Part shown: piece by piece, positions 7,091-61,420 of the stretch
Layout: the number at the start of each line of letters is the position of its first letter
Numbering within the stretch: the first letter of the stretch is position 1
Assembly: GCA_944392945.1 (NCBI GenBank)
Contig: CALXYJ010000003.1
Span: 29,189 to 93,188 of the forward strand
From: an uncultured Clostridia bacterium
GTDB taxonomy: Bacteria > Bacillota > Clostridia > TANB77 > CAG-508
DNA length: 64,000 bases
Direction of reading: 5' to 3'
The notes under the pieces: generated by a model
Database searches by the model: none
Told to the model about the DNA's origin: nothing
What the model saw: the letters and a program-made list of their open reading frames with translations, nothing else
Translations under genes and position numbers: made by a program

Positions 7091-7121
7091 GAAGGAGAAG
7101 ACTTTAGCGGTCTTCTCCTTC
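7091..7121. terminator. 12-bp hairpin overlapping the end of the minus-strand cassette gene
   Basis: GAAGGAGAAGAC (7091-7102) pairs perfectly with GTCTTCTCCTTC (7110-7121). On the minus strand it includes the last codons and stop of the 7104-7481 gene and is followed by a weakly T-rich tract. It can also end plus-strand transcription from the sipW side. Confidence 0.75.
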
Positions 7122-7481
7122 ATATTTGTCGCCAATAAATTTCACTAAAAAGTATAATTCACCTACATTCGATACAGATACGAACGCAGGGTATTCTATC
7201 TGATATGGGTTATTTAACTTCCATAAGCGAAATTCTGACATAAATTTACTGATATAACATTTGGCAGTAGATAAGAGTATCCCTCTGCTTTTGGATAATT
7301 CTTCAGCTACATCTTTTAGTAGATAATCCTCTTCTCCTTTTTTATGAGCAATACACAATATTTCGAGTGAAGATTCATAATACTTTGAACTCTTTTTAAT
7401 ATCGAGTTCTTTAGAGAGAAACTGCATTGATTTCTCCTCGAATTTCTTATCTACACTTTCTGCAACTGTCCGTTTTTTCAT
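7104..7481 (-). CDS. Hypothetical cassette protein, 125 residues
   Basis: Not recognised. A soluble, mostly helical basic protein (KKRTVAESVDKKFEEKSMQF at the N-terminus). A middle segment LLKDVAEELSKSRGILLSTAKCYISKF resembles a helix-turn-helix, so DNA binding is possible but unproven. It is a monocistronic cassette: promoter at 7501-7529, AAAGGAGG before ATG 7481, and a 12-bp hairpin over the stop. Its base composition looks less AT-rich than the neighbouring genes. It is convergent with the sipW-side genes. Confidence 0.75.
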   Translation of the reverse strand: MKKRTVAESVDKKFEEKSMQFLSKELDIKKSSKYYESSLEILCIAHKKGEEDYLLKDVAEELSKSRGILLSTAKCYISKFMSEFRLWKLNNPYQIEYPAFVSVSNVGELYFLVKFIGDKYEGEDR

Positions 7482-7500
7482 TCAAAAAATCCTCCTTTGG

Positions 7501-7529
7501 GTTATAATCTATATAATTATAACTCCAAA
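7501..7529 (-). promoter_or_regulatory. Promoter of the 7104-7481 gene with internal inverted repeat
   Basis: Reading the minus strand: -35 TTTGGA (7529-7524), 17 bases, -10 TATAAC (7506-7501). GTTATAAT and ATTATAAC form an inverted repeat (7501-7523) that spans the spacer and -10, possibly an operator for the gene's own HTH-like product. Confidence 0.5.
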
Positions 7530-7663
7530 AGTGCTAAGAATCAAATTTTATGTATTTTGTGATAGAAAAATTATTCATATTATTGAAAATATACAAAAAA
7601 TATTATATCTTATAAGTAATGTATTTTATTTCATAGAAAAAGAAAAATAGGGGGGAATTAAAC

Positions 7664-7870
7664 ATGTTAAAAAAATTAAAAACAAGTGCTTCATTAATAA
7701 TTATAGGAGAAATTTTATCTTGGGCAGTATCTTATTTTTCAAACAATGATATTAGCAATTTTTCTGAGTTTACTTCTGGTGTTTTACTAGGTATATCAAT
7801 TGGCATAAAATTAATAGGAATTGTATTATTAATAATTTCAATTGTTAAATATTCAGGAAAAGAAATTTGA
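7664..7870 (+). CDS. Small membrane protein, 68 residues
   Basis: Two predicted membrane segments (about 9-25 and 38-62). A purine-rich AGGGGGG tract precedes ATG 7664. The end overlaps the next reading frame by 29 bases. I do not recognise the family. In ordinary anti-sigma loci this position is held by an ECF sigma factor gene; here it is not. Confidence 0.6.
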   Translation: MLKKLKTSASLIIIGEILSWAVSYFSNNDISNFSEFTSGVLLGISIGIKLIGIVLLIISIVKYSGKEI

Positions 7871-9044
7871 AAACAATCTAAGAAAAATATTTACAGAAGA
7901 AATTGAAGTCCCATATTATGTCAAGAATACAATAAGACAAACATTACAACAACAAAATGAAAAAAGTAATAATAGTAAAAAGAAAATTAAAATTATAAAA
8001 TCATTAGCAACAGCCTGTACATGCTGTGTTTTAATTACAGGAGTGGTTTTTGCAAAAGATATTGTCAATATAGTAAAAGACTTTTTTCTAATCAATGAAG
8101 GAATGGATAATGCAATAGAAAATGGATATATAGATAATCCTAATATGGAATATATTAATTCAAATGGAACAGAAATAAAAATAAATAGTATTTTAATGGA
8201 TGATTACAATCTAAGTATGGAAATAGGAATAAAAGGGAACTTTGTTAAAGAAAATAATGTAGATATAACTTTTCCAGATATGATTATAACAGATGAGAAT
8301 AAGAACATCCTATATTGTGAAGATAAGGATACTTTTGAAGAATATTGTAATGACAATAATTTAGGATATAAATGGGCGGAGGATAACGAATATTACATTA
8401 GTTCTGGTAGTAACTCGTATATAAAATCAATTAATGGTGATACACTAAATTTAGTTTATAACTTTTTTGCTGATGATCAATATCCAAAAAGCAAAAAACT
8501 TTTCTTTAATTTGAATAAAGTTTTATATTTTGAAGGCGAAAAAGAAGTAATGATAGAAGGAAATTGGAATATAGAATATGATGTTCCTGAAAAATTTTAT
8601 AATAGAGAAGAGATAATATATAATGTAAAAAATTGTAGCAATGATAAAATAAAATCAATACAAGTAGTAGTTTTGGAAACAACAACAAAAATGCAATTAA
8701 CAACAAATGAAAAGCCGACTTTACCTTATGATTTAAATGATGATGAGAAAACTAAAGAAATAAAAATACAGGAAGAAATAGAAAGAGAACAAAATATGAC
8801 AATACAAGACTTTGAAAATAATAAAAAGTTCAAAGATGAATATATTGAAAATGAAAGAGGAGAAAAATATTATCCAACAAAAAGTACAAGTGAAGATGAA
8901 GGATATTCATTTATCGACATGAGTTATTTATTACATTGGCAAACCTTTAACTTAAATAAATACAATGCAACTAATAGTTTAAAGCTTCATATGAATTATA
9001 ATGGGGAGGATATAATCATTGAATTAGAAAGGAAAATGAATTGA
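7842..9044 (+). CDS. Anti-sigma-factor-like DUF4179-type membrane protein, start unclear
   Basis: A cytoplasmic N-terminus (KKFENNLRKIFTEEIEVPYYVKNTI; about 50 residues), one membrane segment (about 55-72) and a large extracytoplasmic beta-rich domain. This is the layout of RsiV/DUF4179 anti-sigma proteins, normally encoded directly after an ECF sigma gene. No sigma gene is present. The only in-frame candidate starts near the 5' end are TTG 7842 or ATT 7851, inside the preceding small gene and without a ribosome site. The gene may have lost its native start along with its sigma partner, or be translationally coupled. Confidence 0.6.
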   Translation: MLNIQEKKFENNLRKIFTEEIEVPYYVKNTIRQTLQQQNEKSNNSKKKIKIIKSLATACTCCVLITGVVFAKDIVNIVKDFFLINEGMDNAIENGYIDNPNMEYINSNGTEIKINSILMDDYNLSMEIGIKGNFVKENNVDITFPDMIITDENKNILYCEDKDTFEEYCNDNNLGYKWAEDNEYYISSGSNSYIKSINGDTLNLVYNFFADDQYPKSKKLFFNLNKVLYFEGEKEVMIEGNWNIEYDVPEKFYNREEIIYNVKNCSNDKIKSIQVVVLETTTKMQLTTNEKPTLPYDLNDDEKTKEIKIQEEIEREQNMTIQDFENNKKFKDEYIENERGEKYYPTKSTSEDEGYSFIDMSYLLHWQTFNLNKYNATNSLKLHMNYNGEDIIIELERKMN

Positions 9045-9080
9045 TATATCTTTTGTTAAAATTATAGAATTACAAATTAA

Positions 9081-9113
9081 AGAGAGTAGTTATATTGATA
9101 AGTACTCTCTTTT
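9081..9113 (+). terminator. Rho-independent terminator after the anti-sigma-like gene
   Basis: AGAGAGTA (9081-9088) pairs with TACTCTCT (9103-9110), followed by a short T run. Confidence 0.75.
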
Positions 9114-9161
9114 ATGATAATATTAGAAAAATTAGTAATTTGTTTAAATGGAGGAATATAT

Positions 9162-9554
9162 ATGTTTCATTTTAATCATGTAACTATTAGTGTAGATAAT
9201 TTAAAAAACTCATTAGATTTTTATAAAAAATTTGGTTTTAAAATATATAAAGAATATCATGATGAAAATGTTGATATTGTTATGATTAAATTGGAAAGTA
9301 TGATATTAGAGATATTTCATTATCAAGATAAAGAAAAACTGCCTGAGCATTCTAAAAATTTAAATGTAGATTTAAGAACTGTTGGAAATAAACATTTTGG
9401 ATTAGGAGTTAAAGATATAGAAGAGGCAAAAAAATTTATTGAAGATAATAGATTGTATAATGATGAAATTATAATTAATAAAGGTAGACTTGGAAAACCA
9501 TATTTTTTTATAAAAGATCCAAACGGAATATTAATGGAAATAATTGAAGAATAG
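9162..9554 (+). CDS. VOC (glyoxalase/dioxygenase-fold) family protein
   Basis: A 130-residue single VOC unit: FNHVTISVDNLKNSLDFYKKFGF gives the first beta-alpha-beta-beta-beta module with metal-ligand His4-type position, and PYFFIKDPNGILMEIIEE gives the terminal metal-binding Glu strand. The substrate is unknown; members include lactoylglutathione lyases, fosfomycin-resistance enzymes and dioxygenases. I chose ATG 9162, with GGAGG at 9150-9154, rather than the upstream in-frame ATG 9114 which lies in the preceding terminator. Confidence 0.85.
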   Translation: MFHFNHVTISVDNLKNSLDFYKKFGFKIYKEYHDENVDIVMIKLESMILEIFHYQDKEKLPEHSKNLNVDLRTVGNKHFGLGVKDIEEAKKFIEDNRLYNDEIIINKGRLGKPYFFIKDPNGILMEIIEE

Positions 9555-9640
9555 CAAGACAAAAGTTCAAAATGATTTATACCTATTTTGGTCTTTATGC
9601 CACATTTATTTATATATAAGTAATAAAAGATAAATAAGTT

Positions 9641-9847
9641 TTTATTAATGATATAATAACAAATTATGATGTTGATGGATTAGAATGTTATCATAGTGAA
9701 TTTACAAATGATCAGATTAAATATTTACTAGATCTAACTACTGAACGTGGTCTGCTAAGAAGTGGTGGAAATGATTATCATAGGAAAAATAAAAAAGATA
9801 TAAATATGGCAGTAGGAAAGGAAAATCTAAAAATAATGATTCATTAG
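9641..9847 (+). pseudogene. Remnant of a PHP-domain phosphoesterase C-terminus
   Basis: The frame reads YDVDGLECYHSEFTNDQIKY, then LLRSGGNDYH, then MAVGKENL, ending at TAG 9845-9847. This matches the last third of TrpH-type PHP phosphoesterases (GxDGLEVYHSxH...GLLxxGGSDFHG). The upstream metal-binding motifs and start are missing and stops precede it, so it is a truncated relic. It occupies the otherwise gene-free 9555-9979 interval. Confidence 0.65.
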
Positions 9848-9979
9848 TTGAAGATTAGATATAATATGTTAAATGAAGAGTTTAGATAATTAGAAACAGA
9901 TTATTTAATGCGTTCTCATATTTAGTATAAATTTGTGATGTAATGTTTCTAGTAATATAAATTAATAAAAGAGGTCAAT

Positions 9980-10240
9980 ATGAAAAAGATAGATGAAGAA
10001 ATAGAAAAAGTGATAAAAAGTACTAATGAGGAAAACGAATCTAAAATTAATTGGACAAATGCCTGGAGTAAAAAATATCCAGTACTTGCAACATATCAAA
10101 ATAAAGTTGATATATCAAAGTATGCTTGTGAAATTAGAAACATGCTTAATAGTTTATGTAATGAATATGGATTTAGTGATTTAGATAGTATGCTAGTTTT
10201 AAAAGATATACTTTATCATGAATGGAAAGACAATAAATAA
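9980..10240 (+). CDS. Hypothetical protein, 86 residues
   Basis: Not recognised. A soluble, acidic-start protein with a helical N-terminus (KKIDEEIEKVIKSTNEENES) and a conserved-looking core WTNAWSKKYPVLATYQNKVD. AGAGG lies 6 bases before the ATG. It lies within the accessory stretch with no clear partner. Confidence 0.6.
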   Translation: MKKIDEEIEKVIKSTNEENESKINWTNAWSKKYPVLATYQNKVDISKYACEIRNMLNSLCNEYGFSDLDSMLVLKDILYHEWKDNK

Positions 10241-10308
10241 TCATCTATAATTAATTTAAGTCAAAACTGAGCTCGCGAAAGATGAGGCAGAATATTGGTT
10301 TAATTTTA

Positions 10309-10337
10309 TTGAAAATATATAAAGAATGTGATAATAT
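10309..10337 (+). promoter_or_regulatory. Promoter of the 10383-11078 cassette gene
   Basis: -35 TTGAAA (10309-10314), 17-base spacer, -10 TAATAT (10332-10337), 46 bases before the ATG. Confidence 0.6.
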
Positions 10338-10382
10338 ATTATGGTAACATAAATGCTCAAATACCGTTTAGGAGGGATTTTA

Positions 10383-11078
10383 ATGAATATTGAATCTTTA
10401 ACAAGTGAAATTATGGAACGTTTTAATTATTATGAGAAACGGCGCTTTGGATGTATAGAAGCTAGTTGTCTGAATTTGGAAAAAAAATATGATGTTAATG
10501 ATAATACTGCACAGGGTTTTTTAGTAGCCATAAGGAAACAAGAACATTGGGTTGGAGAAAATTTTAATGAAATAGCAAGAAGGTTACTTGCAATTAAGGA
10601 TAGCAAAATCCTAAAATATTTAATTGTTCGTAGTGTTGATTGCAATTTTGAAATGATTGAAGAATTATTTGATCCGAAGCTCTATTCTAATGGGGAACTA
10701 CAAGAGATTGCAAGAGTTGCTAATTCTAACAAGATACTTGAAATAATATTTGATTATATTTATTATAATGTTGGAATAGTAGAAGGATATTTAATTCTAT
10801 GTTGTATTGCTAGCAATAATGTTACAACTCAAGAACTTTTTGATAAGTTGTATGCTTTTGACAAAAGATTATCATCACAAATTTTTGGTAATATTGGTTG
10901 TCAAGCTTCGACCGAACTATTAATGAAAATGTTTTATGAATGCGATGATAATCTTAGAAGATTACATATATTTCATTTAGTGCAGTTTAACAGAATAGAA
11001 ATTGACAAGCAATTAAAAAACTATCTTTTACATCGATTAATCAAAATTTTAAAAAAGGCAAATTATAACCACCGGTAA
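10383..11078 (+). CDS. Hypothetical helical-repeat-like cassette protein, 231 residues
   Basis: Not recognised. A soluble, all-helical protein whose middle and end (KDSKILKYLIVRSVD, NSNKILEIIFDYIYY, ASTELLMKMFYECDDNLRR) look like short helical-repeat units of HEAT type. ATG 10383 is chosen for AGGAGG at 10370-10375; the frame extends 10 codons upstream without a ribosome site. It is a stand-alone cassette with its own promoter and a hairpin over its stop codon, and its composition looks less AT-rich than the flanks. Confidence 0.75.
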   Translation: MNIESLTSEIMERFNYYEKRRFGCIEASCLNLEKKYDVNDNTAQGFLVAIRKQEHWVGENFNEIARRLLAIKDSKILKYLIVRSVDCNFEMIEELFDPKLYSNGELQEIARVANSNKILEIIFDYIYYNVGIVEGYLILCCIASNNVTTQELFDKLYAFDKRLSSQIFGNIGCQASTELLMKMFYECDDNLRRLHIFHLVQFNRIEIDKQLKNYLLHRLIKILKKANYNHR

Positions 11079-11094
11079 AACTGGTGGTTTACTC
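11067..11094 (+). terminator. Hairpin overlapping the stop of the 10383-11078 gene
   Basis: AACCACC (11067-11073) pairs with GGTGGTT (11083-11089), followed by a T-rich tract. The stop codon lies in the loop. Confidence 0.7.
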
Positions 11095-11155
11095 TTTAAT
11101 AAAGAAGGAGAATTAATTGAAAACGAAACAATGACTAAATTCGGAAAATCCGATT

Positions 11156-11265
11156 ATAAGAATATTAATATAATAAGAAAATAGAGATATATAAATGAAT
11201 ATTAGTATGCATAGAAGAGGTAAAAGCCTGGAATCAGTGGAAGTAGAGGTTTATGACTTTTTATA
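11156..11265 (+). repeat. Structured element, copy 1
   Basis: Bases 11170-11262 align without gaps to 14372-14464 (constant offset 3202). The core ATGCAT...AAAAGCC...GAA...GTAGAGG...TTTAT is conserved. The segment 11215-11222 can pair with 11254-11261 and 11223-11227 with 11248-11252, with two mismatches and wobbles. A weak ORF (from ATG 11195 or 11207) reads through it with KSLExVEVExY in both copies, but it lacks a ribosome site. It could be a structured RNA or a relic of a small coding element. Confidence 0.6.
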
Positions 11266-11424
11266 TTATGCTCTCTTTGATAATGGTCGGTTTTTATGTA
11301 TAAAGTTCTTGATTTTCAATATAATATATATATATATTCATTTTTCAAAAATAAAAGAATTTGATTTTGGAAAATCAGATTGTTATATTTTTATAACGAT
11401 TTAAAGATATATTGAAAAAATATT

Positions 11425-11461
11425 AAAAATTATACATGTTTTTAAGATATGTATAATTTTT
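11425..11461 (+). terminator. 13-bp hairpin terminator before the fic gene
   Basis: AAAAATTATACAT (11425-11437) pairs perfectly with ATGTATAATTTTT (11449-11461), followed by a T-rich tail. It would end a transcript coming from the 11156-11265 element. Confidence 0.7.
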
Positions 11462-11531
11462 TTGATTTTTTATACATATTTATTGAAAATGTATAAAAAA
11501 TGTGATATTTTATACATATGGAGGTAAAAGT

Positions 11532-12590: not shown

Positions 12591-12679
12591 TTTTATATAA
12601 TTTACTAATAATTGAAATATGAGGTTAAAAATAAGAAGATGTACAACAATTTATAAATAATAATTGGAATTATTATTTA

Positions 12680-13832: not shown

Positions 13833-14007
13833 ATTGAAATGTAAAATTAATCATTTATTATATAAATATTGATTTTAATGAGTTTCGTTTGCAGATTTAT
13901 ATATTATAATTAATACAATTTTATATTTTATAGAATAATCTTACAAATTCTATAGTTATTGCAATAACTGTGTTACAGACTAAGATCATACAAAATAATA
14001 ACCTTCT

Positions 14008-14039
14008 AAAATCGATTTTAAGCCATTTTAATTTTTAGG
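14008..14039 (+). repeat. Interspersed repeat copy R2
   Basis: Contains AATCGATTTTAAGCCATTTT followed by AATTTTTAGG. It shares the whole AT-rich tail with R3. Confidence 0.65.
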
Positions 14040-14163
14040 TTGATAAATTACTTGTTAAGAATTTAAGGTTAAATACGGATTTTAGAGTATAACTATTAAA
14101 AAATAGATTTTTTTGAAGAAACTACTATCATATATTGATATACAAAAAAGTGCCAAAAAAACG

Positions 14164-14203
14164 ACGCACGAGAATCGATTCTAAGCCATTTTTATTTTTT
14201 AGG
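14164..14203 (+). repeat. Interspersed repeat copy R3
   Basis: Begins ACGCACGAGAATCGATT, shared exactly with R4, then CTAAGCCATTTTTA and the tail shared with R2. Confidence 0.7.
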
Positions 14204-14308
14204 CATATAGTTAGAAATAGGCACTTTGGAGAATTAAGTAAAATAATTATAGTAATGAAATTATATAAGTAAAATAAAAAAATGTCTTAAAAATGATTTT
14301 AATGAGTC

Positions 14309-14467
14309 ATAAGAATATTAATATAACAGTAATACCAAAAGCTTTATAATAACAATGAATATAATATAGATATAATAAGAAAATAAAGATATATAAATAA
14401 ATATTAGTATGCATAAAACAGCTAAAAGCCTTGAATTAGTAGAAGTGGAGCTTTATAGCTGTTATAT
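14309..14467 (+). repeat. Structured element, copy 2
   Basis: Same element as at 11156-11265, with about 46 extra bases inserted after the shared AAGAATATTAATATAA. Here the stem is near perfect: AACAGCTA (14417-14424) with TAGCTGTT (14456-14463), and AAAGC (14425-14429) with GCTTT (14450-14454), with one bulged A. Several stem positions differ from copy 1 and pairing is mostly kept. Confidence 0.6.
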
Positions 14468-14486
14468 TATTTTCTCCTATCTCTTT

Positions 14487-14512
14487 TTGCACAAAACTTT
14501 GATTTTGTGCAA
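14487..14512 (+). terminator. 10-bp hairpin downstream of element copy 2
   Basis: TTGCACAAAA (14487-14496) pairs perfectly with TTTTGTGCAA (14503-14512). The T run (14526-14532) lies 13 bases further on, so terminator function is uncertain. Confidence 0.5.
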
Positions 14513-14800
14513 TGTTATATGTAGATTTTTTTATAGTTTACTCTATACTTCTACTCTCCTACTTCTATTTATATTTTATATTGTAATAACTTTTATTTAT
14601 ATTATCTAAGATATAAATTCTTATGGCTATTATACTATACTAAATTTTTAAAACATATAAATTTTACTTTTAGTCCTATATTTTTTATTGTAATTGATTT
14701 CTTTATTAATAATTATTCTTGCAAATTTGCATTATCTCTCCCCCTATTTATATAATATTTTATTAATGTCTGCCAAAATAAAATAAAAATATACGAAATC

Positions 14801-14832
14801 GAGGAGGCAAAACTTTGCAGCTTCGCCCCCTC
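14801..14832 (-). terminator. Terminator hairpin of the 14867-15109 gene
   Basis: GAGGAGGC (14801-14808) pairs with GCCCCCTC (14825-14832) with one mismatch. On the minus strand it is followed by an AT-rich tract. Confidence 0.65.
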
Positions 14833-15153: not shown

Positions 15154-15182
15154 ATTATAACATAATTTACATAATTATTCAA
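15154..15182 (-). promoter_or_regulatory. Promoter of the 14867-15109 gene
   Basis: Minus strand: -35 TTGAAT (15182-15177), 17 bases, -10 TATAAT (15159-15154) within TATGTTATAAT. Confidence 0.65.
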
Positions 15183-15295
15183 TTGCCTCCTAATGCCCGT
15201 TATTCAAATAAAATTTTTTAGGTCAGACTTTAAATTTATGAAAAACTATATTGTAATCACTCCAAACGCAGTATTTTCAATCATTTTGACACACA

Positions 15296-15325
15296 ACGCA
15301 CGAGAATCGATTTTAAGCCATTTTA
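15296..15325 (+). repeat. Interspersed repeat copy R4
   Basis: ACGCACGAGAATCGATT followed by TTAAGCCATTTT, nearly identical to R3. R3 and R4 are direct repeats bracketing 14164-15325. The rest of 15110-15450 holds only the two promoters. Confidence 0.7.
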
Positions 15326-23510: not shown

Positions 23511-23546
23511 GAAGAAGATGCGAGGTATTATTCCCGCATCTTCTTC
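23511..23546 (-). terminator. 12-bp hairpin overlapping the end of the 23528-23995 gene
   Basis: GAAGAAGATGCG (23511-23522) pairs perfectly with CGCATCTTCTTC (23535-23546). The stop codon lies in the loop region. Confidence 0.8.
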
Positions 23547-23995
23547 TGGTAAAACGTAATTCTTCTTAGCACTTCATTATCTTCTTCGGAAACTTTTAAT
23601 TGTAAATTAAGTTCCTGTTTAGATTTATTAAGTGCTTCCATTTCGCACACCGCCATATATAATATTGGCGAAATCCGTGCAATTTTTTCTTTGCTCGATT
23701 TAGATTCTTTTAAAAAAAGTCTTGAGATTTTGACTAATTCACGATCTGTGAACGTTTTTCCTTGCGCTAATAGCAGAGCTTCTTCTTGTAATTCACGTTT
23801 TATTAAAAGCATAAAGTTCTTTTTATTTTCATAGCTTGCAGCCATTGTCCTAAAATCAGCTGAATATCGGATATCATCTAATATATGGCTTTCTTTGATT
23901 TGCTTTTCCGTGGCATATATTGCTTCAGTGCATAGAGCTTCAATCCCTGCTAAATCATTAAATAAATCCCGACAAATGTCTTTTAGAATCTTCAT
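23528..23995 (-). CDS. Hypothetical cassette protein, 155 residues
   Basis: Not recognised. An all-helical soluble protein with many Glu and Lys residues (LFNDLAGIEALCTEAIYATE near the N-terminus; ELNLQLKVSEEDNEVLRRIT near the C-terminus). It looks like a helical bundle without known motifs. ATG 23995 is chosen because GGAGGA is 5 bases upstream; the longer frame to 24019 has no ribosome site. It is a single-gene cassette with its own promoter and a 12-bp terminator over the stop, less AT-rich than the flanks. Confidence 0.75.
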   Translation of the reverse strand: MKILKDICRDLFNDLAGIEALCTEAIYATEKQIKESHILDDIRYSADFRTMAASYENKKNFMLLIKRELQEEALLLAQGKTFTDRELVKISRLFLKESKSSKEKIARISPILYMAVCEMEALNKSKQELNLQLKVSEEDNEVLRRITFYQKKMRE

Positions 23996-24037: not shown

Positions 24038-24066
24038 ATTATAACACAATTACATGATTTTTTAAA
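24038..24066 (-). promoter_or_regulatory. Promoter of the 23528-23995 gene
   Basis: Minus strand: -35 TTTAAA (24066-24061), 17 bases, -10 TATAAT (24043-24038). The -35 overlaps the T tract of the lemA terminator. Confidence 0.6.
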
Positions 24067-27551: not shown

Positions 27552-27592
27552 GAGGAAATTATTACTATATAATATACAATAACAATTTCCTC
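27552..27592 (-). terminator. Hairpin after the 27643-28557 gene
   Basis: GAGGAAATT (27552-27560) pairs with AATTTCCTC (27584-27592), with a partly paired inner stem. The T run is weak. Confidence 0.5.
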
Positions 27593-28611: not shown

Positions 28612-28640
28612 ATTATATCATATTCTACTAATTATGTAAA
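28612..28640 (-). promoter_or_regulatory. Promoter of the 27643-28557 gene
   Basis: Minus strand: -35 TTTACA (28640-28635), 17 bases, -10 TATAAT (28617-28612). Confidence 0.65.
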
Positions 28641-36725: not shown

Positions 36726-36759
36726 GCAATCCCCTAGACAAATGAGCCTAGGGGATTGC
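36726..36759 (-). terminator. Terminator of the 36782-37117 gene
   Basis: GCAATCCCCTAG (36726-36737) pairs perfectly with CTAGGGGATTGC (36748-36759). Confidence 0.8.
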
Positions 36760-36781: not shown

Positions 36782-37117
36782 TTACTTACTGTTTCTTATG
36801 AATTGTAATAATAAATCTTTTACGCGGATATTTGGATCTCGTAATCGCTTTTGAAGCTCTTTTTCGTTTACATGCAGATCATCTTTTTTTATTTCTTTTT
36901 CCGCCTTTTTTAGAGCTTCGTCAAATGAAATGCCATCAGTTGCAATTACATGTATAATTGCACAATTATCTCTGATATGGTAAATAAGTAGTAATGCATT
37001 TTGGCTAAAATCTCCTAAGATTTTGTCACACAAGCTTTTAGCATAACCATCATTTACCAAGGCATATGTCCGGACATTTTTGTTAAGATTTACAATCCGC
37101 ATAGGATATTTCTCCAT
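36782..37117 (-). CDS. Hypothetical cassette protein, 111 residues
   Basis: Not recognised. A soluble alpha/beta protein (KYPMRIVNLNKNVRTYALVN, LLIYHIRDNCAIIHVIATDG) with a charged helical end (FDEALKKAEKEIKKDD). AGAAGGAGG precedes the ATG. The promoter is -10 TATAAT (37165-37160) with a weak -35 TTATAA (37188-37183) at 17 bases. A perfect 12-bp hairpin follows the stop. It sits directly after an ABC permease gene that shows no terminator of its own, and looks less AT-rich than its surroundings. Confidence 0.75.
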   Translation of the reverse strand: MEKYPMRIVNLNKNVRTYALVNDGYAKSLCDKILGDFSQNALLLIYHIRDNCAIIHVIATDGISFDEALKKAEKEIKKDDLHVNEKELQKRLRDPNIRVKDLLLQFIRNSK

Positions 37118-37192
37118 AATCCATACCTCCTTCTACTTTATTCCACCGGTTACAATAATATTATACCTCATTTCCCTACTTATTATAAAATT

Positions 37193-41630: not shown

Positions 41631-41646
41631 ATTTTTCCTCCTAAAT

Positions 41647-42576
41647 TTAATGATTAAATGATAATATTCTTTTTATAAATGCTATTAATTTATTGTTATA
41701 AACAATGCTTATGGAATTTTTACTATTCTTCTTTTTAAATTCTTTTTCCTTATTATCTAGCCTTTCTATAATTTTCTTACTTTCTTCTTCATAAAATTTA
41801 TCCTCTTCTATAATTCCTCTTAGTGTTTGTAATCCATCTAATTGACTTCTTAATTTAGCTACTTCTTCAGCCTCTGTAATATGTATAATTCTATAATAAA
41901 AATAAAACTTCATTATATAATTTTGAATAGAAAAATATAAAAATTTTATATCTTCTTGCACTTTATATAAATCATCTGTAGTATCATACTCAACTTCTAA
42001 ATTATATAATTTTGTAAAATCCTTAATTAATCTATCTATATTTCCATTAGAAATTTCATTAAGCAATAAATAGTAATCATCCTTTGAATTTATAACAGTT
42101 TGTATAAATTCATTGTCTCCAACTAAAAAATTAATTTGCATAATTAAATTAACTAATAAAGCAAATTTTCCTTCCTTTAAAGACATAAAGAAAATCTCGA
42201 ATTTATTCATTCTTTCTTTTAAATCTTGCATTAATATTTTAGCTGTAAGTACATTTAGTGTTTCACTAAAAATTGTATTTTTCTTATCTTTTTGTAAAAA
42301 ATGCAAATATTCTATTATTAATTCTTCATTTATAGAATTAATATACATTTCATTAGATAAATAAATAACTCCATTTAAATAATAATGTGTTATACTTTCA
42401 TTTTCAAATTTGACTATTTTTATTTGACACTCTTCTAATTTCTTAAACAAATTATCTTGCTGAGCTTTTAAATTTGTAAAGACATTTGTAATTCTTATAG
42501 AAATTTCATTTGCAATTTTAGTTATTTTGTATTGTGGTATTTCTTTTATTATATCTTTTATCTTTTGCTCTTCCAT
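41647..42576 (-). CDS. Hypothetical helical protein, 309 residues
   Basis: Not recognised. Soluble, mostly helical, with a C-terminal coiled coil (EEESKKIIERLDNKEKEFKK) and a final hydrophobic segment (IVYNNKLIAFIKRILSF) that might touch the membrane. It lies 30 bases after a small membrane protein gene on the same strand and 16 bases before DUF362, so the three may be co-transcribed. AGGAG before the ATG. Confidence 0.7.
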   Translation of the reverse strand: MEEQKIKDIIKEIPQYKITKIANEISIRITNVFTNLKAQQDNLFKKLEECQIKIVKFENESITHYYLNGVIYLSNEMYINSINEELIIEYLHFLQKDKKNTIFSETLNVLTAKILMQDLKERMNKFEIFFMSLKEGKFALLVNLIMQINFLVGDNEFIQTVINSKDDYYLLLNEISNGNIDRLIKDFTKLYNLEVEYDTTDDLYKVQEDIKFLYFSIQNYIMKFYFYYRIIHITEAEEVAKLRSQLDGLQTLRGIIEEDKFYEEESKKIIERLDNKEKEFKKKNSKNSISIVYNNKLIAFIKRILSFNH

Positions 42577-42963: not shown

Positions 42964-43052
42964 ATTTTTACTTCCTTACCTAAATATTTAATCGAATTAT
43001 ATCACAATAAATATAAAAAGAACAGATTTATAAAAAAATCTGTTCCAGTATT

Positions 43053-49949: not shown

Positions 49950-49962
49950 CATAATAGAAAAA

Positions 49963-49982
49963 GCGGGGTATAGATTCCCCGC
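49963..49982 (-). terminator. Terminator of the 50010-50300 gene
   Basis: GCGGGG (49963-49968) pairs with CCCCGC (49977-49982), followed by TTTTT on the minus strand. Confidence 0.85.
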
Positions 49983-50009
49983 CGCTTCCCCTTTTGTTTA
50001 CAGTTACTT

Positions 50010-50300
50010 TTACTTATACTCTCTCTCCACGTAATATACTATATCTTCATAGAGAGATCTGCTTATTATCCATGATAAAAGCATACAGATTACAAAAATC
50101 TGTGAAGTCCAGTTTTTTACTTCTGGGACTAAACTTGTTAACATCGCCGTACACACAGCTCCTACAGCTACACAATCTACAGCTTTATTCAGCTCAAGAT
50201 AAATATTGCTCTGGATTGTTTTTGTTCTCTTGACTTCCTGTTCAACAAGATAGCCAATTAAAACCATTGTTACAATAGCTACAATTAAAAGTTTTATCAT
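50010..50300 (-). CDS. Small membrane cassette protein, 96 residues
   Basis: A small integral membrane protein with about three hydrophobic segments (LLIVAIVTMVLIGYL, AVDCVAVGAVCTAMLTSLVP, QIFVICMLLSWIIS) and a charged tail. The size and topology recall holin-like proteins, but no family is assigned. ATG 50300 is chosen for AGAGG just upstream rather than the longer frame to 50357. It is a single-gene cassette between spoIIIAH and the 49898-49949 inverted repeat, with its own promoter and terminator. Confidence 0.7.
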   Translation of the reverse strand: MIKLLIVAIVTMVLIGYLVEQEVKRTKTIQSNIYLELNKAVDCVAVGAVCTAMLTSLVPEVKNWTSQIFVICMLLSWIISRSLYEDIVYYVEREYK

Positions 50301-50361
50301 TTTATTTACCTCTTTTTTCTTTTGGATAAAGGGGAAGCTTTTTGATACGTATATCATATAT

Positions 50362-50390
50362 ATTATATCACTTTATGTAAATTTTTTCAA
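50362..50390 (-). promoter_or_regulatory. Promoter of the 50010-50300 gene
   Basis: Minus strand: -35 TTGAAA (50390-50385), 17 bases, -10 TATAAT (50367-50362). Confidence 0.65.
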
Positions 50391-55521: not shown

Positions 55522-55585
55522 ATCTTGTCCTTTCTGTGTTCCCTTATATCTTGAATTTTTATCTATAAAAATATTTTAAGCAAAA

Positions 55586-55615: not shown

Positions 55616-55647
55616 CTTAATTTTTATTTTATTACTATTTTATTAAA

Positions 55648-56673: not shown

Positions 56674-56967
56674 TTACTTTCTTTCTACAAATTGTTCAAC
56701 TTTCATATGAAGATGATATTTATCTCTTAAATCTGCTATTTCTTTCATCATTGGAGATTTATGATGCGCGTCTAATGCTTCTTGACTCACCCATCTATCT
56801 ATTAATAAAACAGTTTCTTCATCATCCATTGGAAAGAAATATTCATATTTTTTATTTCCTTCTTCAGCTCTTACTCTATCTACAACTCCCTTTTCTACCA
56901 TTTCCTCTGCAAATTTTCTTGCTGCTCCATTTTCTCCTGTATAATAAATATTTATTGTTAAACTCAT
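56674..56967 (-). CDS. Antibiotic biosynthesis monooxygenase-like (ABM) protein
   Basis: A 97-residue ABM-fold protein: INIYYTGENGAARKFAEEMV, FFPMDDEETVLLIDRWVSQE, ALDAHHKSPMMKEIADLRDK. This family includes YgiN-type quinol monooxygenases and heme-degrading enzymes; here a quinol-related role would fit the neighbouring flavin genes. It is the last gene of the TetR-controlled unit. Confidence 0.85.
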   Translation of the reverse strand: MSLTINIYYTGENGAARKFAEEMVEKGVVDRVRAEEGNKKYEYFFPMDDEETVLLIDRWVSQEALDAHHKSPMMKEIADLRDKYHLHMKVEQFVERK

Positions 56968-57083
56968 AATAACCCTCTCCTTAAATATTCTTATTTTTTT
57001 ATGTCAAATTAATTCTTAAAATTATTACTATTATAAAAATTACTGGTAATAAAACGATTGTTTCTTTCTTCCTTCTGTTTTTA

Positions 57084-57626
57084 TTATTTATCCAATCTTA
57101 AACAATTTCCAATAGTATTACCAGTTCTTAAATACGTGTAATTTGGAAATTCAAATAGAACTGGACTAAATTTTGTATAATCTATTTTTCCTTTTGCATC
57201 TAGGTTTTCCTCTTGAACATAAGTATTTGCTATCGACATTATAAAATTATCAAAATTATCTGTTTCATAGTCATCTTCCACAATGCATTCCATAACAACT
57301 GGTGCATCATTTATAATTGGTACTCCTGCCTCTCCTATATGGTATTCAAAAACGTTTGACTTATCTTGCTTACTTCCACTTACACTACCTACATAATCTG
57401 CTTTTTTTATCATTTCTTCACTTACAATATTTATAGATAATGTTTTTGTAGCTTTAATTCCTTTATTTGTGTAATGTGTTTTTACTAAACTTACCATTAC
57501 TTTATCATGTCCTATAATTCCACTATGTCCTGCTAAAAGCCAGTTTACTTTACCTTCTACCATTGTCCCTATTACTAATAATGGCATTGGATATAACGCT
57601 AATTTTGAACCTATATTTTTTTGCAT
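57084..57626 (-). CDS. Flavin reductase-like FMN-binding protein
   Basis: A 180-residue split-barrel flavoprotein: PLLVIGTMVEGKVNWLLAGH, MVSLVKTHYTNKGIKATKTL, SINIVSEEMIKKADYVGSVS. It matches the flavin reductase (RutF/FMN-binding) family. It starts 15 bases after the CMD gene and shares its transcript. Confidence 0.88.
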   Translation of the reverse strand: MQKNIGSKLALYPMPLLVIGTMVEGKVNWLLAGHSGIIGHDKVMVSLVKTHYTNKGIKATKTLSINIVSEEMIKKADYVGSVSGSKQDKSNVFEYHIGEAGVPIINDAPVVMECIVEDDYETDNFDNFIMSIANTYVQEENLDAKGKIDYTKFSPVLFEFPNYTYLRTGNTIGNCLRLDK

Positions 57627-57641
57627 TTTTATTCCTCCTTA

Positions 57642-58388
57642 TTAATTTGGTATTACTTCATTAATACAACTAATAGCATTTAAACTTCTTGGATATCCTA
57701 TATAAGGAAGAAGTGCTGTTACTGTATTTAATAATATTTGCTTATCATTTCCTACATTTACATTTCCTACTATATGTCCTTTTACTTGTGGCTCACAACC
57801 CCCTTGTGAAATCAATAGCGAAAATGTAATTAGTTCTCTTGTTTTTACACTTAATCCTTTTCTTGTATAATAATCTCCAAAACAGTTATCAGATAAAAAT
57901 TTTTGAATATGCACCTGATTTTCTGGAGAATTTTCATAATTTTTATCAATGGTCTCTCCAAATATTGATTTTTGTACTTTTAATCCTTTATCAAAACGAT
58001 TTTCTCTATTTGTTGTTCCTTGTTTTTCCAATGGTAATTTAATTCCTCTTTCTAAAAATATTTTATTTGTTGGTTCTAATAAATCTAGTACCTTTAAAAT
58101 TCCTACATAAGGAACTGCTTGATATAAAATTTCTTTAATTTCTACTGGAGTAACACCCACATTTAGTGCTGCTTTTACAAATGTTTCATATCTTTTAGGT
58201 GTTTGTACTGCAATTGTTGCAGCTAGTATTACCATCTGTCTCGTTTTATCATCTAAATAGTCATATTCTTGTGCTTCATCTAGACTAAAATTTACTACAA
58301 TTTCGATTAATTCATCATCCAAACCTTCATTTATTGCTTCTCCAAATATTTTCTTACAATTTTCCATTGCTTTTTCTGTAATATTCAT
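57642..58388 (-). CDS. Carboxymuconolactone decarboxylase family protein, two-domain
   Basis: A 248-residue protein with two CMD/AhpD-like helical modules: LDDKTRQMVILAATIAVQTP with VNVGVTPVEIKEILYQAVPY-type pattern in the first half, and SVKTRELITFSLLISQGGCE with NVGNDKQILLNTVTALLPYI in the second. The CxxC of AhpD is absent; only one Cys lies in the second module. The context suggests quinone or redox chemistry. AGGAGG before the ATG. Confidence 0.88.
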   Translation of the reverse strand: MNITEKAMENCKKIFGEAINEGLDDELIEIVVNFSLDEAQEYDYLDDKTRQMVILAATIAVQTPKRYETFVKAALNVGVTPVEIKEILYQAVPYVGILKVLDLLEPTNKIFLERGIKLPLEKQGTTNRENRFDKGLKVQKSIFGETIDKNYENSPENQVHIQKFLSDNCFGDYYTRKGLSVKTRELITFSLLISQGGCEPQVKGHIVGNVNVGNDKQILLNTVTALLPYIGYPRSLNAISCINEVIPN

Positions 58389-58426
58389 TCCTTTTTCCTC
58401 CTAATTTTTATATTTTATTATTTTAC

Positions 58427-58492
58427 AAGGATAGACCTTATGTTCGTGAAGTACTGCGAAGTAGTCTACACATCTGTGCATCGAAATCTTTA
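58427..58492. other. GC-richer island between two operon genes
   Basis: About 65 bases between the DUF4405 stop and the CMD gene are clearly less AT-rich than the flanks and contain short self-complementary segments such as GTAGACTAC on the minus strand. On the minus strand a frame reads ISMHRCVDYFAVLHEHKVYP without a ribosome site. I cannot assign it; it may be a relic or small repeat. Confidence 0.4.
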
Positions 58493-58498
58493 ATTTTG

Positions 58499-59167
58499 TC
58501 AACTCACATCTTTCTTATTTTTTACTTTTCTTATACAAGAAAAAATAAAGAAAATAATAAGTGCTACTGCAATCAATACTAATAAATATTTTAAATAAAA
58601 TAATATTGGGCTTTGTTCATAATCAAAAAATTTGAAGTCATTTACTAAAAACATGTCTTCACAAACTCTTAAATCTATAAAAGAATATATACCTAATCCT
58701 GCAAAAAGAATTAATACAAAGTAATATACATATTCAAAAGTACTATTTTTCATCTTTACATTTAATTTATTCATAAATGATTTTATATGAAGTCCTACAT
58801 GAATGGCCATTAAAACAAATCCCCAAGAAGTCGATAGCATATGTAATCTTCTTCCAAACATAGTTGTGGGAATATCAAAAAATGCAAATACATCAGATGA
58901 AATCATTATTCCACTTACCATCATTCCTAACATTGCTATAAAAAGTAATGAATTTAATATAATATGAAATGTTCTTTGAAAAGTATGTTTTCCTTTAAAT
59001 ATTCCTTTATACCATTTTATATTTAGGATATTATGAATAATAAATAATATAAATGTAATTGTTCCTAATATTTCATGTACTTTATTATCTGTTGCATAAT
59101 ATCCCATTAGTATAGTAAACAATATGGTCATTACAATATCTAACATTATTCTGAATTTTTTATTCAT
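58499..59167 (-). CDS. DUF4405 cytochrome b-like membrane protein
   Basis: A 222-residue polytopic protein with about five segments. His-containing helices (VHEILGTITFILFIIHNILN; TFQRTFHIILNSLLFIAMLG; HMLSTSWGFVLMAIHVGLHI) supply likely heme ligands. This is the DUF4405 architecture, a putative membrane electron-transfer protein. ATG 59167 is chosen for AAAGGAG upstream; the longer frame to 59212 lacks a site. Confidence 0.85.
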   Translation of the reverse strand: MNKKFRIMLDIVMTILFTILMGYYATDNKVHEILGTITFILFIIHNILNIKWYKGIFKGKHTFQRTFHIILNSLLFIAMLGMMVSGIMISSDVFAFFDIPTTMFGRRLHMLSTSWGFVLMAIHVGLHIKSFMNKLNVKMKNSTFEYVYYFVLILFAGLGIYSFIDLRVCEDMFLVNDFKFFDYEQSPILFYLKYLLVLIAVALIIFFIFSCIRKVKNKKDVS

Positions 59168-59219
59168 AAAAATTCTCCTTTTTATTGACCTTCTATTATA
59201 TGCAGATAACATCTATAAT

Positions 59220-59242
59220 AAAAAGCAACTAATAAAGTTACT
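59220..59242 (-). terminator. Weak internal terminator within the redox operon
   Basis: AGCAAC (59224-59229) pairs with GTTACT (59237-59242) including one wobble, with Ts on the minus strand. It may limit expression of the distal genes. Confidence 0.4.
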
Positions 59243-59278
59243 ATTTTTTATAATAATATCACCATTCATTGAATATAG

Positions 59279-59812
59279 TTATCTAATCTTTCTTCTTAAT
59301 TCATAAGCCTCTTTGTAAAAATGATCTGGCATCATACTTATTGTTCCACAGCCTTTTCCTATAATCATACCCTCATCTTTATAATTCATATAATTGACTA
59401 GTTTTTTATAATGTACTATTAAAGGCTCAACGGTAGAATTGTCTGTATTCCAACAAGTCATGATAAATGCTGTTTTTAATCTTTTACTACTTATTCTTCC
59501 TGTTCTTGAATAAAATCTATCTATTGTAGCTTTTAGTGGAGCTGTCATTGCGAAATAATAAACTGGTGTTGCAAAAACCAACATATCAGCATTTTCCACC
59601 TCATCTAATATCTTAATCATGTCATCATTAAAAACACAATCACCATCCATTCCACAATGGTTACATCCAATACAATGATGTATATCTAAATGTGCTGTAT
59701 CAAATCTTATAATGTCATTATCATTTTCTTTTGCTCCTTTAATAAATTCGTCAACTAATGTATTTGATGTTCCGTGTAAATTATGACTTCCTGTTAATAT
59801 TACTATTTTCAT
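59279..59812 (-). CDS. Flavodoxin-fold NAD(P)H-dependent oxidoreductase
   Basis: A 177-residue FMN reductase-type protein: VILTGSHNLHGTSNTLVDEF (FMN phosphate loop), IHHCIGCNHCGMDGDCVFND (a Cys-rich segment), ATPVYYFAMTAPLKATIDRF (FMN ring loop). The CxxCxxC-type segment is common in iron-sulfur flavoprotein-like enzymes of anaerobes. It follows tetR by 20 bases. Confidence 0.9.
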   Translation of the reverse strand: MKIVILTGSHNLHGTSNTLVDEFIKGAKENDNDIIRFDTAHLDIHHCIGCNHCGMDGDCVFNDDMIKILDEVENADMLVFATPVYYFAMTAPLKATIDRFYSRTGRISSKRLKTAFIMTCWNTDNSTVEPLIVHYKKLVNYMNYKDEGMIIGKGCGTISMMPDHFYKEAYELRRKIR

Positions 59813-59832
59813 AAAAATTCACTCCTTTTATT

Positions 59833-60444
59833 TTAATTTAATAATTTTAAAATTCCTTTACATGTAATTTCGTATATAGATAAATATTTAAATGGTACAT
59901 CTGCTATTTCCATTGCTTGTTGTTGCTTTTCCGTTACTTCTGCATAAGGATAAATTCCATACATTAGTGGAAAGAATAAAAATACAAATTCGTCTCTTTC
60001 ATCATTACTAATTTCTTTAAAAAATTTATCTACACATTTTTTTACCATCTTTATTGCTTCTCCATATGCTTTTTTAAATTCTATTAATTCTTCCATTCTG
60101 CTATTTTCTTCCATGTCATACATATTCATAGAAAGTAATTTTAACAAATTCTTTCTTTTTGCGATAGTTTGTGCTAATTTATCTGCAAATATTTCTTTTG
60201 TCATATCAGAATTTTTTTCATACATTTCATTTAAATCATCCATCCATCTTTCATATTCTCTTTTTAAAAGTGCAAGAAATATTTCTTCTTTTGTTTGAAA
60301 ATAATTGTATATTGAAGTACGAGAAAATGTTGTTTCTTCTCCTATACTTTTAATAGTTATATCTTTAAAATTATTATTTCTATACAGTTTTTCGCAAGCA
60401 TTTATAATTTCTTCTTTCCTAATATCAACTATTTCTTTAGCCAT
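59833..60444 (-). CDS. TetR-family transcriptional regulator
   Basis: A 203-residue regulator: N-terminal HTH (IINACEKLYRNNNFKDITIK; then GEETTFSRTSIYNYFQTKEE) and a helical ligand-binding domain. Two palindromes TGACACcGTGTCA lie in its promoter, so it likely represses itself and the five downstream genes. AAGGAG before the ATG. Confidence 0.94.
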   Translation of the reverse strand: MAKEIVDIRKEEIINACEKLYRNNNFKDITIKSIGEETTFSRTSIYNYFQTKEEIFLALLKREYERWMDDLNEMYEKNSDMTKEIFADKLAQTIAKRKNLLKLLSMNMYDMEENSRMEELIEFKKAYGEAIKMVKKCVDKFFKEISNDERDEFVFLFFPLMYGIYPYAEVTEKQQQAMEIADVPFKYLSIYEITCKGILKLLN

Positions 60445-60493
60445 TTTTTCTCCTTTCCTATTTTATTTTTCTTAAAATACTTCTTTTAATTTT

Positions 60494-60548
60494 TCTGACA
60501 CCGTGTCAATTTAATTATTATATACCACAGTTTTGACACCGTGTCAAT
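60494..60548 (-). promoter_or_regulatory. Twin TetR operators around the tetR promoter
   Basis: Two copies of the palindrome TGACAC-C-GTGTCA (60496-60508 and 60534-60546), centres 38 bases apart. On the minus strand the distal copy supplies -35 TTGACA, followed by 17 bases and -10 TATATA; the proximal copy lies over the transcription start. A repressor bound here would block polymerase. Confidence 0.8.
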
Positions 60549-60645
60549 ATTTTTTATATCTATTTTTAGTAATAGTTATTTATTGCATTACTTGTCCATT
60601 AATTGTGTCAATAAACATTCAATTAATTTTTTATTCAAAAAAATA

Positions 60646-60664
60646 CCCTCGCAAAAAGCGAGGG
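60646..60664 (-). terminator. Terminator of the 60725-61420 gene
   Basis: CCCTCGC (60646-60652) pairs with GCGAGGG (60658-60664), followed by TATTTTTTT on the minus strand. Confidence 0.85.
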
Positions 60665-60724
60665 GTCGGTGAGAGTTTTTGTATTTATACGTCTATAGTT
60701 CCTAACGTCCCGTGTGGGGATAAA

Positions 60725-61420
60725 TCATTTTATGACCAAAAAGTCACCTGCATAAATAAGATCAGGATCCTTAATATTATGGTTGTCTTCCATAAGTTTT
60801 AATACAGTTGTATCATATAGTTCAGCAATTTCACTTAAAGTATCACCCTGCCTAATCTCATACTTTCCTATTGCGACTTCCACTGTCCCGATGCCCAATT
60901 CATTCTCTTCAATATTCCAGTATATCGGAATATTATTTGTGTCTAAGTAATTTGTCAGCTCTTCTGCATTCGCTTCCAGTGGTAAAATATAATCTACCAC
61001 AGCTTTTTTTGCATCGGCTTCAAACGCTTCTTTCGCAGTTTTCAGTACACTGTTAGGCATTATTCCAATAATCTGAACAAAATCAACCCGATTATCAATA
61101 GTATCTATAAGTTCTTTATATGTGCCATCACTATTTCTGAAAAGTTGAAACCTTATTTTTTCATGTTGGTCCAGACTGCTGATAGCAATGGTCACTCTTT
61201 GATTCCTAGCACTATATTCTAGTGCATACTCTTTTACCAATTTTACGAAATTATTAAAGCAGGTATAATCACCATCTAAAGAAATTTCTGTAGAGATTTC
61301 CTCTCCATTCCTTATGCTATCAGCTATGCTAACGGTTGTAGAAAGTTCTTCTCCCCGTGCAGTTATAGAAGATACGCTAAAAAAACATAATGTTAATATT
61401 GTTGCAAAAAATTTTTTCAT
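60725..61420 (-). CDS. Secreted LysM-domain cassette protein
   Basis: A 231-residue protein: signal peptide (FFATILTLCFFSVSSITARG), an unassigned alpha/beta domain (about 25-180; VKEYALEYSARNQRVTIAIS, NRVDFVQIIGIMPNSVLKTA) and a C-terminal LysM domain (IRQGDTLSEIAELYDTTVLK; ending DLIYAGDFLVI). LysM suggests attachment to peptidoglycan. ATG 61420 is chosen for GGAGG upstream. A single-gene cassette with its own promoter and strong terminator, looking less AT-rich than its neighbours. The role of the first domain is unknown. Confidence 0.82.
   Translation of the reverse strand: MKKFFATILTLCFFSVSSITARGEELSTTVSIADSIRNGEEISTEISLDGDYTCFNNFVKLVKEYALEYSARNQRVTIAISSLDQHEKIRFQLFRNSDGTYKELIDTIDNRVDFVQIIGIMPNSVLKTAKEAFEADAKKAVVDYILPLEANAEELTNYLDTNNIPIYWNIEENELGIGTVEVAIGKYEIRQGDTLSEIAELYDTTVLKLMEDNHNIKDPDLIYAGDFLVIK

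Follow-up and report, generated by a model that had tools for sequence, protein, structure and literature searches.

Stand-alone genes of distinct composition in reused intergenic gaps of an uncultured Clostridia genus, and a promoter box that links them

A stretch of 64,000 nucleotides from an uncultured Clostridia bacterium (assembly GCA_944392945.1, contig CALXYJ010000003.1, positions 29,189 to 93,188), here called the window, contains eight stand-alone genes scattered between operons, at positions 7104, 10383, 14867, 23528, 27643, 36782, 50010 and 60725. A first-pass annotation had proposed that they were captured repeatedly as self-contained units. The eight genes are a sample of a genus-wide layer of accessory genes. 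They form a compositional class, lie in gaps that relatives share, and are lost or replaced at the same gap, and the pairs that were tested are under purifying selection. A short promoter box, TTAYRTAA, links unrelated genes of the class and predicts stand-alone genes with a high GC content at third codon positions (GC3); this link is new. On balance, the eight genes are probably members of a dispersed class of self-contained accessory genes; reused gaps house many genes of this class, and its shared box would place them under one regulator.

Composition and build of the eight genes

The host genome comprises 1.75 Mb in 48 contigs, and the window has a GC content of ∼26%. Genes were simple open reading frame (ORF) calls, and the early high-GC3 sets include some spurious ORFs. 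With ribosome-site-corrected starts, the eight genes had GC3 values between 0.19 and 0.33, compared with 0.074–0.181 for the remaining 60 window genes listed, in agreement with the annotation that they are less AT-rich than their neighbors. Gene 10383 is borderline (0.19), and two ORFs of 66–69 residues at 11195 and 14409, which are probably no genes, likewise reach 0.20–0.24. The annotation had suggested a comparison with genes genome-wide; across 464 kb of the same genome the bulk lay at 0.07–0.19, and the eight genes fell mostly into a tail above 0.20. Seven of them are on the minus strand, as annotated.

The best-scoring sigma-A-like promoters had an exact TATAAT in seven and an extended −10 element in six of the eight genes. 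An exact 17-base spacing had been claimed for all of them. It was found in the best-scoring reading of six, whereas 10383 and 36782 scored best at 15 and 18 bases; by eye, both also permit 17. Hairpins resembling terminators were present in 8/8 cases under a lenient rule, and the stop codon lies inside the hairpin in three of the eight (7104, 10383 and 23528). Among leader genes, 82 with high GC3 exceeded 427 core genes in exact TATAAT (62% versus 38%), extended −10 (54% versus 27%) and 17-base spacing (76% versus 63%); the promoter method takes the best match, and these percentages serve as comparisons, not as absolute rates. The observation that the eight genes share a self-contained build and a distinct composition is thereby confirmed. 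The genes, numbered as cassettes, and the exact boxes in their promoters are as follows.

7104..7481, minus strand: cassette 1, 125-residue orphan, GC3 0.294, no Pfam family over cut-off; promoter TTGATT 7539-7544 / TATAAT 7516-7521; terminator-like hairpin 7089-7123 across the stop codon
10383..11078, plus strand: cassette 2, 231-residue orphan, GC3 0.19, no Pfam family over cut-off; hairpin 11067-11089 across the stop codon
14867..15109, minus strand: cassette 3, 80-residue protein, GC3 0.333; promoter TTGAAT 15177-15182 / TATAAT 15154-15159; terminator-like hairpin 14801-14832
15167..15174, minus strand: exact box TTATGTAA in the promoter spacer of cassette 3
23528..23995, minus strand: cassette 4, 155-residue protein, GC3 0.276; promoter TTTAAA 24061-24066 / TATAAT 24038-24043 with a decayed box; hairpin 23511-23546 across the stop codon
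27643..28557, minus strand: cassette 5, 304-residue protein with two CxxCxxCC stretches (PF03692), GC3 0.23; promoter TTTACA 28635-28640 / TATAAT 28612-28617; hairpin 27554-27590
28632..28639, minus strand: exact box TTACATAA overlapping the −35 element of cassette 5
36782..37117, minus strand: cassette 6, 111-residue orphan, GC3 0.259; TATAAT 37160-37165; hairpin 36726-36759
50010..50300, minus strand: cassette 7, 96-residue small membrane protein, GC3 0.299; promoter TTGAAA 50385-50390 / TATAAT 50362-50367; hairpin 49956-49989
50373..50380, minus strand: exact box TTACATAA in the promoter spacer of cassette 7
60725..61420, minus strand: cassette 8, 231-residue protein with a likely signal peptide and a C-terminal LysM domain, GC3 0.259; −10 element TATAAT 61473-61478; terminator-like hairpin 60646-60664

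Recognized domains are limited to two of the eight proteins. The 27643 product scored 28.6 bits against PF03692 (cut-off 23), which places it among the CxxCxxCC proteins, from which it differs by its tandem form; its family was matched in 7/14 genus genomes. The 60725 product matched PF01476 (LysM) with E 2e-12. Its structure model (mean predicted local distance difference test score 74.5) gave high-probability matches to LysM domains and no PDB match at E ≤0.001, and LysM was the sole part recognized with confidence. Three weak matches to defence models were obtained for 23528 and none for the other seven. Gene 36782 matched only itself among 191 genomes of the order.

The fourfold-site GC of the eight cassettes is 0.233, close to the intergenic GC of 0.221 and far above the 0.075 of core genes. 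CGG makes up 19% of their 62 Arg codons versus 0.00 in the core, and CAG makes up 46% of their 35 Gln codons versus 13%. A tRNA scan of 400 kb returned four tRNAs, too few for judging CGG decoding. Because cassette fourfold GC equals intergenic GC and the core lies far below, a foreign origin is unproven by composition alone. Equilibrium without codon selection explains much of the cassette composition, but not the GC3 of 0.46–0.49 in genes at the 36.8 kb gap of the relatives G011, G012 and G013, or of 0.64 in another G013 gene that shares its leader with others. Genes with GC3 of at least 0.22 numbered 32/554 in held-out genus DNA, compared with 5/261 in four other genera of similar GC. These extreme values and the excess in the genus therefore make it likely that a higher-GC source feeds the class.

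A promoter box shared by unrelated genes

Words enriched 5′ of high-GC3 genes reduce to TTACATAA and TTATGTAA, which occurred in 21/84 high-GC3 versus 10/400 other leader genes. The box reads as a degenerate palindrome. It is found in both orientations and in two positions: at the −35, as TTTACATAAT or TTGACATAAT followed by a spacer of 17 bases, or within the spacer a short way ahead of the −10 element. GC3 reached at least 0.20 in 28/37 leader genes with the box compared with 66/607 without it. Sixty letter permutations of the box matched on average 0.75 and at most 12 of 94 high-GC3 genes; the box itself matched 20.

A ribosome-site filter was applied in the held-out, family-counted, extended −10 and box-arrangement tests. 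In held-out DNA the box was present in 6/46 high-GC3 genes versus 1/265 others. With each protein family counted once and genes of GC3 0.17–0.20 left out, the ratio was 25/93 versus 3/417 (6/417 if any member counts). Among promoters of the type TGnTATAAT, the box separated 24/44 from 1/64. The four arrangements of the box promoter comprised 35 genes in genus DNA that includes the derivation part, with double counting possible for genes that have two boxes. GC3 was at least 0.20 in 29 of these, and 31 were stand-alone. The same DNA held 97 genes behind box-less TGnTATAAT promoters, 25 with GC3 of at least 0.20 and 58 stand-alone.

Genes were also retrieved by promoter only. The pattern TTATGTAAA-N2-4-TGnTATAAT was present in 173/191 order genomes and 14/14 genus genomes, and the reversed TTATGTAAA pattern, a weak control that has no −10 box, in 5/191. 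An ORF followed the promoter in 43 of the 50 loci listed; the seven others were left out, and the results hold among the loci listed. The genus retrieval gave 26 genes with a median GC3 of 0.33, compared with 0.154 for other genes there; 25/26 had GC3 of at least 0.20 and 25/26 were stand-alone. Without the four loci in DNA from which the box had been derived, 21/22 had GC3 of at least 0.20. The order retrieval (20 loci listed, all from one genus of another family) gave 17 genes with a median GC3 of 0.185 versus 0.141; GC3 was at least 0.20 in 8/17, and 16/17 were stand-alone. The 43 proteins form seven homologous pairs only and include few known families; matches to defence models were MzaA (two), PDC-S33 (one) and MTase_II (one), and there were a few to PHROGs. 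No shared promoter for orphan cassettes, and no system comparable to this one, came up in the literature searched; much subscription literature lay outside that search, and absence is unproven.

As a separate observation, three of these 43 box-promoter genes encode sigma-70 region 4 and/or RNA polymerase alpha C-terminal domains (alpha-CTD) and are candidate regulators of the class.

L382:1032-1520, in G006: sigma region 4/alpha-CTD box gene
L387:1648-2418, in G003: sigma region 4/alpha-CTD box gene
L390:1649-2269, in G012: sigma region 4/alpha-CTD box gene

Reused gaps and gene turnover

The order of the flanking genes is kept in relatives of the genus, mostly at 75–89% DNA identity, and the gaps between them hold different genes in different species. 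In G003, G004 (as broken pieces) and G006 the gap at 27.5 kb contains CxxCxxCC genes; in G012, G013 and G009 it is short. At 36.8 kb, high-GC3 genes are present in 5/5 spanning relatives in four different sets, one of which is shared by the sister species G001 and G004; different families occupy this gap in G001/G004, G011, G012 and G013. At 50 kb, either small hydrophobic genes (G001, G003 with two, G011 and G012) or a second small family were found. At the 14867 site, next to the same asparagine-tRNA ligase gene, G003 has two homologues of the cassette and G012 has one, with 44–48% amino acid identity. A remote homologue of 23528 lies at the same site in G003 (32% over 77 residues) and has an exact box in its promoter. 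Three cassettes lie in variable blocks: 7104 and 10383 inside one 4.2 kb block that is missing at that place in G001, and 60725 inside a 4.9 kb block that is missing at that place in G003 and G012.

Occupancy was counted over seven relatives (without G005, G008 and G009) for gaps from 14 kb on. Four window gaps entered the count; 14867, which is unbounded in the backbone set, and the three cassettes in variable blocks were excluded, and the 47 kb gap, filled in 3/4 spans, was counted on the other side. A gene with GC3 of at least 0.19 was present in 12/18 relative-spans of the four gaps. The corresponding counts were 5/53 spans for 13 other gaps that are 80 bp or longer, and 7/117 spans for all 28 other gaps.

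Some short gaps are scars. In G012 the short 27.5 kb gap retains the last codons and the terminator of the gene, and what stands at 26.8 kb is left over from a gene that is longer in G003; both cases are losses. Divergence was compared with the core in nine chosen same-site pairs. Synonymous divergence (dS) was clearly above core in two of them, 1.84 versus 0.17 for the second small family at 50 kb (G001-G004) and 0.80 versus 0.29 at 14.9 kb (G003-G012). Three more were saturated, with the proportion of synonymous differences (pS) above core, e.g. 27643 versus G003 with pS 0.81 and core 0.49. The remaining four were near core (0.17 versus 0.17, 0.31 versus 0.28, 0.42 versus 0.28 and 0.85 versus 0.78). 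Judged by divergence, five of the nine chosen pairs thus appear as replacements. The ratio of nonsynonymous to synonymous divergence (dN/dS) was 0.08–0.26 in the six unsaturated pairs (core medians 0.05–0.09), and the proteins are therefore under purifying selection. At 47 kb, one gene of G001 is as close to its G012 counterpart as the core, and the same site in sister species G004 holds a gene 51% identical. One family remained steady at 3.5–4.9 times the core protein distance over six pairs.

The proposal of repeated capture stands in part. The genes are a separate, self-contained class that is lost and replaced between species, but eight independent captures at unrelated places do not describe them: gaps are reused in relatives, those of 27643, 14867 and 23528 by the genes' own protein families, and remnants persist in two G012 gaps. 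Empty sites in relatives, which would have spoken for insertion, were found, but some of them are deletion scars. Normal codon use in homologues at the same loci had been named as evidence to the contrary; homologues are present at some of these loci, but their codon use is equally unusual.

No integron integrase was found over the TIGR02249 cut-off in any of 14 genomes, and matches below it turned up in every one of the 14 control genomes as well. The 14 genomes examined all show other, weaker matches to tyrosine recombinases, and 12/14 contain ComEC. No donor was found when 27643, 60725 and the GC3 0.49 gene of a relative were searched against 5.8 billion proteins: 27643 gave 11 matches and 60725 gave 12, each including its own cluster, and the relative's gene matched only itself. 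No match to 27643 was obtained in the genome contigs searched. Viral contigs offered no convincing source for the two families scanned in IMG/VR, where matches were to the LysM end and ten CxxCxxCC loci matched at 26–58% in the best segment. Against PHROGs, 60725 was matched mostly via LysM, with one match (E 0.0012) to residues 78–162; otherwise only 7104 was matched (E 0.039). A 20-base promoter pattern had 0 hits in viral contigs, an uninformative number, as one permuted control also had 0.

Other variable sites and repeats were noted in the window. At 41646-41647 a core-like module with a sir2-type gene is present in G001 and G012, and at 43045-43052 a four-gene block of 4.5 kb is present in G004 and G011, absent or present between species. 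A region of ∼380 bases at 14235-14621 contains one short doubtful ORF, is 80–87% conserved in five relatives and has two copies in G003; no Rfam match at gathering thresholds was found in the window, this region included. A 32-base element around AATCGATT occurs in three copies (13998-14029, 14161-14192 and 15293-15324) that lie near a switch in GC skew and gene direction, possibly the replication terminus, and a similar string is found 3′ of a box gene outside the family, in the genome L363. A degenerate repeat (3269-3634) is located at the end of the 861-residue gene 1045-3630.

Leader pairing, interpretation and significance

Promoter and leader together are shared by genes that are unrelated or barely related (two in G009, one in G011 and one in G013), with 72–80% identity over 77–148 nucleotides in the better pairs. 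Two G011 genes of the 36.8 kb gap also share a leader (74% over 133 nucleotides). Five small hydrophobic proteins encoded at the 50 kb site in five species (96–110 residues) each come from an mRNA in which a stretch of the 5′ leader is perfectly complementary to the 3′ end. The segments concerned in the window are listed together with those of cassette 8.

50328..50338, minus strand: 5′ leader segment GCTTCCCCTTT of cassette 7, perfect 11-nucleotide complement of 49984-49994
49984..49994, minus strand: 3′ segment AAAGGGGAAGC of cassette 7, just after the stop codon; partner-swap p 0.012
61444..61451, minus strand: GGTGAGAG in the 5′ leader of cassette 8, with its complement CTCTCACC at 60668-60675; partner-swap p 0.006

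Cassette 7 scored 17 with its own 3′ end and 7–8 when that end was exchanged for those of the seven other genes in the set. In the five species the complementary stretches are 11, 12, 13, 13 and 7 nucleotides long and score 17, 17, 16, 18 and 10, versus 6–12 with the 3′ ends of other genes. The letters vary by species; the 13-nucleotide cases (G003 and G012) are alike save two compensated positions, and G003 has a further gene, similar to that of G012, with a 14-nucleotide complement (score 19). The segments end 20–42 nucleotides before the start codon and leave the Shine-Dalgarno sequence uncovered. No membrane gene was present at the 50 kb gap in G006, G009, G002, G010, G005, G007 and G013, and the prediction gained no new species there. 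The second 50 kb family (L258:406-741, with counterparts in G001, G004 and G006) has a leader hairpin of its own, GTGCTC..GAGCAC in G003 and GTACTC..GAGTAC in the others, a compensatory change.

Six of the eight window genes showed no significant pairing with themselves under partner swap. The pairing of cassette 8 is a case of a single gene with no comparative support, and that of 14867, CCCATTT/AAATGGG where homologues have CCATATT/AATATGG, is suggestive (p 0.11). Pairing as a property of high-GC3 genes in general was rejected: the first set scored 8.36 versus 7.47 (sd 0.12, partner swap), with z 7.4 under the ribosome-site filter and 5.1 without the 50 kb family, and the effect failed on held-out DNA (z 0.9, later 0.5 and −0.5).

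Typical toxins of type I toxin mRNAs are shorter than the ∼100-residue proteins of the 50 kb site. The 50 kb pairing differs from that of type I toxin mRNAs and of icaR mRNA in that it lies upstream of the ribosome site, not on it, and in that its sequence differs between species. As in icaR mRNA of Staphylococcus aureus (PMC3868564) and in type I toxin mRNAs, the complementarity is between a 5′ leader and the 3′ untranslated region of one mRNA. In the predicted fold of the 50 kb mRNA these two ends pair with each other, and this would limit translation or protect the message.

In the mechanism that we favor, the conserved flanks would be the sites of homologous recombination through which related species exchange versions of a cassette, probably following uptake of DNA. 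Ordinary deletion would remove cassettes, and no integrase would be needed. Flank recombination is suggested because the flanks are conserved, replacement is by the same family and ComEC is present in most of the genomes. The box would act as an operator through which unrelated genes come under the control of one regulator immediately upon arrival; a regulator is suggested because the box is palindromic and orientation-free.

Several results weigh against this reading. An exact box is present in the promoter of only three of the eight window genes (14867, 27643 and 50010); it is decayed in 23528, 60725 has TGACATAA solely downstream of its −10 element, and 7104, 10383 and 36782 have no box. 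High-GC3 genes also stand behind box-less TGnTATAAT promoters (25/97), two box arrangements are incomplete in their association (13/17 high-GC3 at −35 and 5/7 in the spacer in the TTACATAA orientation), and the held-out part of the extended −10 test was small (2/9 versus 0/22, p 0.08). In four other genera (328 kb), which include the other-family genus that yielded the order loci, the box was rare and unlinked to GC3 (4/171 leaders, one of them high-GC3). No regulator was identified. The p value for the four gaps against other operon-sized gaps (5e-6) is optimistic because sister species share inherited inserts and the spans are not independent. The closest species are 92–94% identical at best, and exact insertion junctions were not readable. 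Raised dS may partly reflect weaker codon constraint, although a tenfold rise is hard to explain in this way.

The genes may be ordinary hotspot islets, i.e. lineage-specific genes in tolerated spots that turn over by flank recombination, with the box as the promoter style in which they arrived and no common regulator. One gap does hold different accessory genes in different genomes, and the gaps are shared without an integron integrase. Transfer hotspots are described by Oliveira et al. 2017 (PMC5635113) as accessory genes concentrated in few gaps with high turnover, often without mobile elements or an integrase, and flank recombination is proposed there; these features resemble the present gaps. 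The latter mostly hold one to three self-contained genes with a shared promoter box and a composition class, and the comparison here is between species, not strains. Since the box divides high from low GC3 among equally strong extended −10 promoters and occurs in two orientations and two positions, we regard islets with no common regulator as a less likely alternative. It is also conceivable that nothing is foreign, and that these are old genes private to the genus, weakly expressed and with synonymous sites at mutational equilibrium, the core having been pulled to A/T-ending codons. The agreement of cassette fourfold GC with intergenic GC and the family at a steady multiple of core distance are as expected on that account, but the genes of GC3 0.46–0.49 in three relatives and the leader-sharing gene of 0.64, the CGG share of Arg codons, the roughly tenfold dS in one pair and the scarcity of such genes in similar-GC genera make it unlikely.

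Integron gene cassettes are single-gene units that end in a hairpin, and in this respect the eight genes are alike. Scattered integron-type cassettes or other integrase-moved units are nevertheless very improbable here: no integron integrase passed the cut-off in the 14 genomes, there is no array, each gene has its own promoter, the hairpins resemble intrinsic terminators, and the same family recurs in the same gap.

A wider form of the favored reading, a promoter-tagged cassette system across the order in which unrelated orphans share one address (the TTAYRTAA box next to an extended −10 element), fixed sites between operons and one dedicated regulator, is doubtful at present; the sigma region 4/alpha-CTD proteins found among the box genes are perhaps that regulator. 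If true, the cassette would be defined by a shared promoter and not by a shared recombination site, and the system would parallel the integron without an integrase. Cataloguing of orphan genes from uncultured bacteria usually proceeds one gene at a time, whereas here a short promoter sequence retrieves stand-alone, mostly unrecognized genes. Because the promoter retrieves them in two genera and its pattern is present in most sampled genomes of the order, one could draw up an inventory of a large hidden gene class, look for its regulator and test collectively what it is for. The gaps also suggest a way in which small gene units may persist and be exchanged at fixed sites with no integrase involved, and they offer a set of replaced yet selected genes in uncultured Clostridia.

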